A DNA stretch of 41,625 nt from Prochlorococcus sp. AG-673-M19 (GTDB taxonomy: Bacteria > Cyanobacteriota > Cyanobacteriia > PCC-6307 > Cyanobiaceae). This document shows positions 8,082 through 29,017 of this stretch, piece after piece. Position 1 is the first letter of the stretch; every line of letters begins with the position of its first letter. The stretch covers positions 1-41,625 of the forward strand of contig QCTP01000011.1 in assembly GCA_003211115.1 (NCBI GenBank), given 5' to 3'. Position numbers and translations under genes: made by a program. The notes under the pieces are model-generated. The model did not search any database. It worked only from the letters and a program-made list of their open reading frames with translations, and was not told where the DNA came from.

Positions 8082-9620
8082 TTGAAAATTTTTATTAAAA
8101 AAACAAAGAAATTATTAACCGATTTGACGACTTTAGATGTTGCTTCTTTAATAGTTGCAATTTTAGTGATAATTCCAATTTTTAATTTCTTAATTGAAGG
8201 AATTGCTTTTGTTTTAGGAGGAAATTTTTCTCTAGGTATTGCAGGTAGACAAGAAATATTTGGAACATTAAAACTTTTAATCCTGACAAGTTTATTTGGA
8301 GGTGGATTAGGGACCCTAAATGCTTGGTTATTGTCAAATTGCGAATTTCGATTAAGGAAAAATCTTCGTATTATTCAACTAATTCCTCTCGCAACTCCAG
8401 CATATTTGATAACTGCGGTTTTACAAGATTTAGGAAGTATTTTGGGCTATCAAATAACTGGTTTGTGGTGGGGAGTTCTTATACTTTCAATTACTACATA
8501 TCCTTATGTTTTCATACTTGCTAATGAAAGTTTTAATAAATTTGGAGTTAATCAAATTAATGCGAGTAGAGGTTTGGGAATTGGACCATGGGGAAGCTTT
8601 TTTAAAATTGCCTTACCAATGGCATTCCCAGCATTGATTACAGGAATTAGCCTGATGTGTATGGAGGTTTTGAATGAATTAGGAACAGTTGAGTTATTAA
8701 ATATTCCAAGTATTTCTAAAGGTATAACTGAGAATTGGATTATTGAAGGAGATCCCAAGAGCGCGATTGGATTATCATTAGTTGCTTTAATAATAGTTTT
8801 TACTTTGATTTTATTTGAAAAATGGTCAAGAAATAAAACAAAACGTTGGAGTGAAAATCCGGCATCATTAGATTCTCTGGGATGGGTTTTAAAAGGATAT
8901 AGATCTTCTTTAGCGGTATTAATTACTTTATTTCCTCCATTGTTTTCAATTGGAATTCCATTCTTATGGTTTCTATTAAATATTGATCAGTTAAAAAAAG
9001 GATTTACGATAGAATTACTATCTCTAACATTTAGAACTGTTTCCCTCGGAATAATTACTGCATTATTAACATTAATTTTTTCTTTAATATTAACGCTAGC
9101 TTATCGTCAGAATAAGATTTTACTAATGAAATTCATAACATTCCCATCAGGGATCGGATATGCAATACCAGGCACTGTATTAGCGATATCATTAATAACA
9201 ATTTCTAATTCAAAATTCCATTTCATAGCTATATGCCTTCTGATCTGGGGTTATATAGTTAGATTTTTGACCATTTCAAAAGGTACTCTTGATTCTGGTT
9301 TTGAAAGAATATCTCCTAGCCTTGATGAAGCGGCAAATAGCCTTGGCTCTAATTGGCTTGATGTTACCAAAAAGATACATCTACCCTTATTAAAGGGACC
9401 AATATTCGTTGGATCACTTCTAGTATTCGTAGACACAATTAAGGAATTACCGATTACATTTATTCTCAGGCCATTTGATTTCGATACATTATCTGTAAGG
9501 ATATATCAATATGCTGGAGATGAGCGAATGGCAGAAGCTCTATTACCTGCACTCTTTATAACAGTATTAGGGCTAATTGCATCAAGTACATTAATTCCAA
9601 GCTTAGAAAAAAAGAATTAA
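8082..9620 (+). CDS. futB: Iron(III) ABC transporter, fused double permease (FutB/FbpB type)
   Basis: This is the membrane subunit of a ferric iron importer that moves iron across the inner membrane. The 512-residue protein consists of two BPD-type permease halves, each with about six hydrophobic segments. EAA-loop motifs are seen near residue 160 (ASRGLGIGPWGSFFKIALP) and near 412 (DEAANSLGSNWLDVTKKIHLP), where the ATPase docks. The fused arrangement and the spacer between halves match FutB/FbpB/SfuB. The partner binding protein and ATPase genes are not in this window. Start is TTG at 8082, since no ATG lies near the conserved amino terminus. Substrate assignment rests on family resemblance; a thiamine-type ThiP permease is the main alternative. 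Its stop shares TTAA with the next gene. Confidence 0.82.
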   Translation: MKIFIKKTKKLLTDLTTLDVASLIVAILVIIPIFNFLIEGIAFVLGGNFSLGIAGRQEIFGTLKLLILTSLFGGGLGTLNAWLLSNCEFRLRKNLRIIQLIPLATPAYLITAVLQDLGSILGYQITGLWWGVLILSITTYPYVFILANESFNKFGVNQINASRGLGIGPWGSFFKIALPMAFPALITGISLMCMEVLNELGTVELLNIPSISKGITENWIIEGDPKSAIGLSLVALIIVFTLILFEKWSRNKTKRWSENPASLDSLGWVLKGYRSSLAVLITLFPPLFSIGIPFLWFLLNIDQLKKGFTIELLSLTFRTVSLGIITALLTLIFSLILTLAYRQNKILLMKFITFPSGIGYAIPGTVLAISLITISNSKFHFIAICLLIWGYIVRFLTISKGTLDSGFERISPSLDEAANSLGSNWLDVTKKIHLPLLKGPIFVGSLLVFVDTIKELPITFILRPFDFDTLSVRIYQYAGDERMAEALLPALFITVLGLIASSTLIPSLEKKN

Positions 9621-24615: not shown

Positions 24616-24798
24616 TTAAATAGTAGAAAATTTACTAATCAAAGCAAAAATAATAAATATTATTCCTATACCTATAGTCGCCATTCTTCCATTCCAAATT
24701 TCTGCTTGAGGAGTAAAACCTCTTTTCCATAAATTAAGTTCTTGCTTATCAACAGATTTGAATGTTTCGGTAGGCCTTACTTTGGATTGTTTTTTCAT
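24616..24798 (-). CDS. hli: High-light-inducible protein (single-helix chlorophyll-binding type)
   Basis: A 60-residue Hlip. ELNLWKRGFTPQAEIWNGRMA (split) contains the light-harvesting superfamily signature AEIWNGRMA at residues 32-40, where Glu33 and Asn36 are the expected chlorophyll ligands. One membrane helix follows (IGIIFIIFALI region). Hlips bind chlorophyll and carotenoid, protecting photosystems and supporting chlorophyll reuse under light stress. It lies only 6 bases downstream of tsaD, so it could share that transcript or have an internal promoter. Single core copies of this type are typical of Prochlorococcus. Confidence 0.94.
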   Translation of the reverse strand: MKKQSKVRPTETFKSVDKQELNLWKRGFTPQAEIWNGRMATIGIGIIFIIFALISKFSTI

Positions 24799-24804
24799 TG
24801 TTAA

Positions 24805-25876
24805 TTAGAAGGGAGGGTTTTTTTCATAAAGAGAGTTTGCTTGGTCAATAGGAAGTCTTCCTGAAATTCCCAATTCAAGAGAACTTTCATGTTGCCTAAA
24901 TTTGAGTCTAAATAAGGCTGCGGCTCCAATCATCGCCGCATTATCTGTGCAAAGATTTAAAGGGGCTAAATGAACTTTAATAGATTTTTTCCATGCTTCT
25001 TCAATCATCATTTTTCTTAATGTATCGTTAGCCGCAACACCACCGACAACAACGATATTATCCAGACTATTATCAATTGCGCATTTAATTGTCCTTTCTA
25101 CCAAAACTTCTGCTACAACTCTCTCAAAACTTGCTGCAATATCTGGGATTGGTATCTCATCTCCATTTTTGTTAAATTTTTCGACCAATCTCAATACCGC
25201 TGTTTTTAAACCACTGAAAGAGAAATCATATTTCAAAAAACCTCCCTTCTTATCAGAAATCTTACATTTAGGTAAATTAAATTTTGATGCGTTACCTTTT
25301 TTGGCAATTTTTGCAATTGCAGGTCCTCCAGGGTAACTTAATCCCAATAATCTTCCTACCTTATCAAAAGCCTCGCCCGCGGCATCATCATAACTTCTTC
25401 CAAGTCTTTGCATTTCTCTTCTATCACTAACTTTAATTAATTCAGTATGTCCGCCACTAACAAGTAAAGTTAAGAAAGGAGATTTGGGATAGTTTTTTGA
25501 AAATAATATTGATGAAAGATGTCCCTCTAAGTGATGAATACCTAAAAAAGGTTTTGAGTATAAAGTACAAAGTGATCTTGCAGTAATAGAACCAACTCTT
25601 AAGCAACCAACTAATCCAGGAGTAACCGTTGAAGCAATAACATCAATTTCTTCAATCCTAATTTTTGATTCTTCTAAAGCTTGTTCAAGGACAAAAGGAA
25701 TTAACTCTAAATGTTTTCTCGCTGCGAGTTCAGGTACTACCCCCCCCCCACTTAGAGTGATCTTCAATTTGTGAAGCAACAATATTTGAATGTATTTTAT
25801 AAATGTCATCACTATTAGAAACAATAGAGACGGACGTCTCATCACAACTTGTTTCAATAGCTAGAACTTTGAGCAT
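24805..25876 (-). CDS. tsaD: tRNA N6-adenosine threonylcarbamoyltransferase TsaD, apparent +1 frameshift
   Basis: TsaD transfers threonylcarbamoyl to A37 of ANN-decoding tRNAs and is essential in most bacteria. The start ATG at 25876 gives a proper amino terminus ([17 protein letters not shown]) up to residue 43, KW. Then a run of ten G on the minus strand (25740-25749) throws the reading off: this frame stops five codons later with TGA. With nine G the sequence would continue as [13 protein letters not shown], giving 356 residues, the expected length. The downstream frame is intact to 24805, including HHLEGH (metal ligands) and VVGGVAAND. An ATG at 25857 in the downstream frame yields a spurious amino end. 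A sequencing error, a mutation or slippage are all possible. Confidence 0.88.
25740..25749 (-). repeat. Ten-G homopolymer inside tsaD
   Basis: Ten consecutive C on the plus strand (G on the coding strand) lie in the conserved WGGVVPE codons of tsaD. Such a run is very rare in DNA this AT-rich. It is the exact point where the two tsaD reading frames meet. Confidence 0.97.
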
Positions 25877-27292: not shown

Positions 27293-29017
27293 ATGCAAAA
27301 GGGAGTCCCTCAGATAATGGATATTACATCTATTAAATCTGTATTGCATGATTTATCAGAAGAAGTTTTACCGTCAAGGTTTGAAACTGCTCAACAACCC
27401 GAGCCTAATATAATCCAATTCTGTTTAAGAGGAATAAATAGCCAAACCTGGATAGAGGTATCTTGGGATAGTGATTCTGCACGAATACTAAAAATAAATC
27501 GGCCTGAAAAAACCGGAGCAGAAAGTACCCTTTCTAAACAATTAAGATATGGATTGAAATATATGGCTCTAGTTAAAATAGAACAAGATAAATTTGAAAG
27601 AGTTATTAAATTTGGATTTGCAAAAAAGCCTGGAGATAAAATAAGTAAATACTTAATTTTCGAATTAATGGGTAAACATAGTAATATTTTTTACTTAGAT
27701 AATAATCAAAAAATAATTGCTGTTGGCAAACAAATAAACCCTAATCAATCTAGCTTTCGTATCGTTTCAACTGGCGCTATCTATTCAGAACCTCCCCAAA
27801 ATTTGAAAAAGGTACCTATTGCAAACGAATCTTATGAATCATGGAAAGAATCTATTTCAGCAGTTCCTGAATCGCTTAGATACTGCCTAATTAATACTTA
27901 TCAAGGCGTAAGTCCTATATTAACTAAGCAGCTCGAGACTTTTAGTAATCTGAGCAGTTTAGAAATAATGAATAAAAATATTGATATTATCAGCGAAACT
28001 AACTTAAAAAAGATATACCAAAGTTGGAAAATATGGATTAATAGGTTTAATAATAACAACTTTAATTTCTCAATTTTTGACAGTTTTTATTATTCAGTTT
28101 GGTTTTTAAAGAATGAAATAAATAATAAAAATAATATTGATCAAGTTAATGGATTAGAAAACTATTACAGCTTTTACTTAAAACAAAGAAAAATTGACGC
28201 CTTAATCAAAAAAATTGATGGCATAATTTTTAAACAAACAAATCTTGAGAAAAAGAATTTTAATTTGCAATCTGATCTTTTAATTAACTCCGAAAATTAT
28301 CAAAAATATAAAGAAAAGGCTGACAAAATATTTATGACTCATGAGATACAAAAACAAGATATTATCGAAGGCCAAAAGCTTTATAAAAAGTCAAAAAAGC
28401 TAAAAAGAGCACAAAATTTAATTAAAGAAAGAATTGATGTATATAAAAAAAAACTTGATAGATTAGAAGAATTTAGTGCTCTATTGGATAACCTGAATTC
28501 TTTAAAAAATGAAAATCCAATAATCAGAATAAATTTACTGGAAGAAATTAAAGCTGAAATTTGTAGAGAGTTTAATGTAAGAATCAAAAATATAAGAGAG
28601 CAAAAAAGAGACTCATCTGGATTGGAATCATCTCCAATAGAAATAAACACTCCCAAAGGCCTAAAAGTGCAAATAGGTCGAAATATGAGGCAAAATGATC
28701 TAATAAGTTTTAAGTTTTCAAAGAAAGGGGATCTTTGGTTTCATGCACAAGAATCGCCTGGAAGTCATGTTGTTTTAAAGTCTTCATCTCAAAAACCATC
28801 AGATGAAGACATTCAAATATCAGCAGATTTAGCAGCTTTATTTAGTAAAGCAAAAATGAATATTAAAGTACCAATTAGTCTTGTAAATATAAAAGACCTC
28901 CAAAAAATTACAAAAGGAGGTCCTGGTTGCGTTTCATTTAATAACGTAGAAATTCTTTGGGGTAATCCTACAAGAGGAAAAGATTACATTAAAAAAAATC
29001 TTAAAACAGCAATTTAG
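27293..29017 (+). CDS. rqcH: NFACT-family protein (RqcH/Rqc2 homologue, formerly fibronectin-binding-like)
   Basis: Bacterial RqcH binds stalled 50S subunits with peptidyl-tRNA and adds carboxy-terminal alanine tails that mark the peptide for degradation. The 574-residue protein has the NFACT-N domain (about 10-230), a long charged coiled-coil middle (about 290-430), and the NFACT-R domain at the end. That end domain includes GRNMRQNDLISFKFSKKGD (split), DLWFHAQESPGSHVVLKS and VSFNN. ATG 27293 gives eight extra residues over ATG 27317; an AAGGGAG sequence at about 27299 could serve the second ATG. The function is inferred from the family. Confidence 0.88.
   Translation: MQKGVPQIMDITSIKSVLHDLSEEVLPSRFETAQQPEPNIIQFCLRGINSQTWIEVSWDSDSARILKINRPEKTGAESTLSKQLRYGLKYMALVKIEQDKFERVIKFGFAKKPGDKISKYLIFELMGKHSNIFYLDNNQKIIAVGKQINPNQSSFRIVSTGAIYSEPPQNLKKVPIANESYESWKESISAVPESLRYCLINTYQGVSPILTKQLETFSNLSSLEIMNKNIDIISETNLKKIYQSWKIWINRFNNNNFNFSIFDSFYYSVWFLKNEINNKNNIDQVNGLENYYSFYLKQRKIDALIKKIDGIIFKQTNLEKKNFNLQSDLLINSENYQKYKEKADKIFMTHEIQKQDIIEGQKLYKKSKKLKRAQNLIKERIDVYKKKLDRLEEFSALLDNLNSLKNENPIIRINLLEEIKAEICREFNVRIKNIREQKRDSSGLESSPIEINTPKGLKVQIGRNMRQNDLISFKFSKKGDLWFHAQESPGSHVVLKSSSQKPSDEDIQISADLAALFSKAKMNIKVPISLVNIKDLQKITKGGPGCVSFNNVEILWGNPTRGKDYIKKNLKTAI

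Follow-up and report, generated by a model that had tools for sequence, protein, structure and literature searches.

The tsaD gene in the window (the whole stretch of DNA analysed, 41,625 nucleotides) is divided between two reading frames of the minus strand, which meet at a run of ten G at positions 25740-25749. This run is most likely a homopolymer length error with one surplus G. A length error was regarded as the most likely explanation because runs of at least ten G also break other indispensable genes in similar drafts.

Frame break in tsaD

The amino-end frame (25730-25876, minus strand) starts at the ATG at 25876, encodes the conserved amino end of TsaD, reads through 48 residues and across the G run and then ends at a stop at 25732-25730. 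The body frame (24805-25752, minus strand) is open from 25752, after which 18 residues were read in translation, to its stop at 24805; it is also open upstream to a TTG at 25857, and as read from this TTG it is without the conserved amino end. When the tsaD frame of a one-contig genome (G033, 356 residues) was aligned to the window, residues 1-45 (95.6%) and 44-356 (92.7%) were matched in different frames, with the junction at the G run. The body alone was matched by the TsaD model TIGR03723 with 353.3 bits, above the cut-off of 296.1. A single intact tsaD reading frame was not found in the window, and, apart from the G run, both halves are intact and conserved. The joining of the two frames at ten G, as proposed in the original prediction, was confirmed by the coding-strand sequence, the two translations and the alignment to the frame of G033.

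The run was also said to be striking in this DNA, and this held in part. Within the window it is the sole run of at least seven G, and overlapping G7 matches as numerous as those of the window were obtained in 3 of 100 dinucleotide shuffles; a run of exactly ten G occurs at least once in 69 of the 266 genus genomes, so that such runs are uncommon and not singular. As for the spelling of the conserved glycines as GGG GGG, the claim of an unusual codon choice had to be softened: in the long ORFs of the training set, glycine was encoded by GGA (44.3%), GGT (30.8%), GGG (13.8%) and GGC (11.1%), and GGG is thus in the minority without being rare.

The genome to which the window belongs, as contig 11, comprises 1,080,278 bases in 55 contigs and is 66.7% complete. 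A second intact tsaD, which would have removed the argument from essentiality, was searched for in this 66.7%-complete genome and none was found, a single match being obtained. As an in-window control, 103 reference ORFs of G033 were compared, of which 69 matched the window and three did so in two frames. Two of these three double-frame matches (8082-9620 and 27293-29017) sit opposite real genes, and therefore no broken gene other than tsaD was detected in the window. A phage source was considered and dropped, no match being obtained by blastn against a phage collection. The 60-residue frame directly after tsaD (24616-24798, minus strand) was without a match in NCBIfam, and we take it to resemble a high-light-inducible protein.

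Selection on tsaD and its essentiality

For the body of tsaD, dN was 0.036-0.051 and dS was 0.468-0.659 against seven relatives; for the amino end, dN was 0.020-0.047 and dS was 0.266-0.419, also against seven relatives, six of which were shared with the set used for the body. From these substitution rates, tsaD is judged to have been under selection until very recently, and the low dN/dS fits an error and a fresh mutation alike. A decayed tsaD pseudogene was ruled out by the low dN/dS in both halves. The essentiality of tsaD, on which the original prediction had relied, is backed by one passage of a review (PMC9654439), a table row preceding the archaeal row, where depletion of tsaC and tsaD is given as leading to cell death; that passage holds no essentiality test in a cyanobacterium.

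The tsaD site in relatives

A tsaD match was obtained in 220 of the 266 genus genomes, and close inspection was applied to the fetched loci and 12 odd cases. The Gly pair is in frame in the 38 other fetched loci (some genomes being represented more than once) and contains an interrupting base in 37 of them. It is spelled GGA GGA in 15, GGA GGC in seven, GGA GGT in five, GGT GGT in four, GGA GGG in three, GGT GGC in two, and GGG GGG and GGC GGA in one each. The comparison of tract length in related strains, which had been suggested as a check, gave nine G (GGG GGG) with an open frame in G135, ten in the window and mostly no long run elsewhere, and variation of run length among strains at this place was limited to these two, the sole long ones observed. 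Among all 125 runs of at least ten G in the 266 genomes, each of which was checked, the one in the window alone sits at a tsaD-like site, and a conserved slippery site in tsaD was rejected on this absence of conservation among relatives. In another draft (G059), the break in tsaD is elsewhere, at a run of seven G within the conserved SGGHTE residues (L311, about 1790-1800).

Another broken gene in the window's genome

Six runs of at least eight G are present in the genome of the window, namely three of eight, one of nine, the ten in tsaD and one of 11 in cbiB. The three runs of eight and the single run of nine are within open frames. The run of 11 G (contig 29, 7524-7534; L040, L056) splits cbiB into two frames, and the partial body of cbiB was matched in NCBIfam with 159.3 bits, below the cut-off of 165.9. 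The cbiB frames of 19 fetched relatives (L280-L298) are open, with 341-352 codons and without inner stops.

Audit of long G runs in the genus

All 125 runs of at least ten G in the 266 genus genomes (81 of exactly ten and 44 longer) were audited, together with 30 of the 79 runs of nine G among the matches listed from 101 genomes. The frame was assessed by a codon-score test over 120 bases on either side of the run. Among the runs of at least ten G, 23 were shifted, 11 were in frame and 91 were noncoding or unresolved; among the runs of nine G, the corresponding numbers were two, nine and 19. Shifted and in-frame runs were distributed differently between the two classes (Fisher P 0.006). Not every long run is miscounted, because 11 coding runs of at least ten G are in frame. 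The shift was +1 in 19 of the 23 and +2 in four, and the +1 shifts look like one surplus G. Six further runs (L136, L108, L080, L144, L158 and L168) appeared shifted by open-frame length or by eye and were kept outside the 23; for L136, a shift was suggested when it was set against the copy of the gene in the window.

Twenty-one of the 23 shifted genes were compared with NCBIfam (L096 and L072 being left out), and 19 were matched, several of them partially or below the cut-off, L095 and L111 being without a match. The shifted genes include FtsH, ATP synthase subunit A (AtpB), CP43, DAHP synthase, PBP2, TypA and TrmD, as well as RadA, CobQ, Mfd, CbiE/T and phosphoglycerate kinase (for which the best match was a bifunctional PGK/TIM model). 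Phosphoglycerate kinase, CP43, ATP synthase a, FtsH, TrmD and DAHP synthase are proteins that a phototroph cannot lack. Breaks similar to that in tsaD are thus found at long G runs both in the same genome, as in cbiB, and in other drafts. A G-rich Gly-Gly site is common to the DAHP synthase loci L315 and L333-L336; there the window's genome carries nine G and stays in frame, but the frame is broken in the drafts G084 and G069.

None of the 23 shifted runs fell in the 28 genomes of at most ten contigs (46.9 of 354.4 Mb), a borderline result (P 0.038, or P 0.051 without the two runs of the window's genome) for which genomes without a printed contig count were taken as drafts and sizes were rounded. 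The few coding runs of at least ten G in these near-finished genomes comprise L082, in frame by codon score, and L045 and L087, whose in-frame state is suggested by the open reading frame only. Runs of at least eight G were denser in drafts, with 106 in 20 genomes (26.5 Mb, 4.0 per Mb), than in the near-finished genomes, with 121 in the 28 (46.9 Mb, 2.6 per Mb; P 0.001). This contrast in density fits draft error and was given no weight, because the drafts were from the clade of the window, so that clade and assembly type are confounded.

Some other features of the long runs were recorded during the audit. Of the 158 audited runs, 54 fall in the gap that precedes rpoA, where they form a poly-C run of 9-16 bases as read on the coding strand, near-finished genomes included; examples are L076 (G002), just before 1514, and L049 (G033), with 16 C. 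The rpoA of L076 was confirmed by NCBIfam, and the gene upstream of this gap is presumably rpsK. The length of the poly-C run differs between genomes, so it could tune the expression of rpoA; no such run was seen in the window. In each of two near-finished genomes, a pair of runs of at least eight G is found with a spacing of 24 bases (G003 contig 1, 279546 and 279570; G043 contig 1, 304884 and 304908). L153, on a short contig of the draft G230 (contig 36), reads to us like an animal protein, and this contig is probably a contamination.

Explanations of the frame break

Among the three options named in the original prediction, a homopolymer error was the best supported, a deliberately slippery site was contradicted by the lack of conservation and a strain-specific mutation was considered unlikely. 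The genome of the window is probably a single-cell assembly, as suggested by its small, fragmented and partial state. The surplus G would then have arisen at one of the steps toward the single-cell draft, be it whole-genome amplification, library preparation, sequencing or assembly, and tsaD would most likely be ordinary and intact in the living cell. The conserved Gly-Gly, being spelled GGG GGG after TGG, would produce a long G run that may easily be miscounted. In the workflow behind one large Prochlorococcus set, MDA or WGA-X is used to amplify the cells and single-cell SPAdes for the assembly (PMC6122165), and the NextSeq 500 is named in the method paper (PMC5519541). The single-cell workflow gave 3.0 indels per 100 kbp as an average over three benchmark cultures (PMC6122165), and the one indel in the 41.6 kb window is about what this published rate predicts (1.2). 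Prochlorococcus single cells tended toward the fewest indels among the benchmark cultures, according to the method paper (PMC5519541), which speaks somewhat against an error. None of the literature titles found dealt with a frameshift in tsaD or with errors at poly-G runs in single-cell genomes of Prochlorococcus.

A real mutation by replication slippage in the sampled cell or lineage, with the cell failing or living on residual TsaD or another copy, is an unlikely account of the break. Such a mutation could only be very recent, because dN/dS is low in both halves of the gene, and the low ratio suits a fresh mutation as well as it suits an error; a real homopolymer change is described for MED4, where an A run upstream of mutT has lost 1 bp (PMC2955971). 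Single mutations would nevertheless leave unexplained why 23 of the 34 long runs whose frame was resolved are shifted, many of them in indispensable genes, and a fresh mutation in tsaD would leave the broken cbiB of the same genome unexplained. Somewhat less probable still is a run that is real and tolerated, where slippage of RNA polymerase or of the ribosome on the G run would yield enough full-length TsaD. The position of the run exactly at the frame junction and the similar breakage of indispensable genes in several genomes would agree with such tolerance, and homopolymer slippage is a known phenomenon of bacteria (compare the title of PMC1088944); tolerance is opposed by the absence of out-of-frame runs from the 28 near-finished genomes (0 of 23, P 0.04-0.05) and by the runs of nine G, which are mostly in frame (nine versus two shifted). 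A programmed frameshift or a phase-variable switch controlling tsaD is very improbable. Poly-C and poly-G runs do serve phase variation in some genes (PMC3711429), but at the tsaD site at least ten G are found in the window's genome alone, the Gly pair elsewhere is in frame and nearly always interrupted, as described above, and tsaD is a housekeeping gene and not a surface gene.

The preferred reading, a length error, implies that, in draft genomes that are probably from single cells, long G runs make core genes (tsaD, pgk, psbC, atpB) look falsely like pseudogenes, and that conclusions on gene content and essentiality can be led astray in this way. The competing view, that runs of at least ten G in indispensable genes are real throughout Prochlorococcus and that slippage supplies the full-length protein, would account for the high proportion of out-of-frame runs among those resolved, and is improbable in our estimation. 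If the runs were real, it would be surprising to find such a tolerance of frame in a phototroph so abundant in the ocean. We know of no slippage rate on G runs for Prochlorococcus.

Comparison with known systems

The break in tsaD resembles the indel errors of single-cell assemblies (PMC6122165; PMC5519541) in that the window has about one per 40 kb and belongs to a fragmented, partial genome; the indel-error passages of these papers are silent on G runs, and the place of the window's genome in that data set is our inference. It also resembles the singleton frameshifts that are read as sequencing errors or indels in the GeneTack survey (PMC3711429), as a conserved gene is affected and the break is unshared by relatives, whereas the breaks in this genus, unlike those singletons, collect at runs of at least ten G. 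With programmed transcriptional slippage and ribosomal frameshifting (compare the titles of PMC5009743 and PMC1088944), tsaD shares a homopolymer that joins two frames, but its site is without conservation. With the phase-variable poly-G genes mentioned in PMC3711429, it shares a long G run within a reading frame; unlike them, tsaD is a housekeeping gene and has no length variation at a conserved run.
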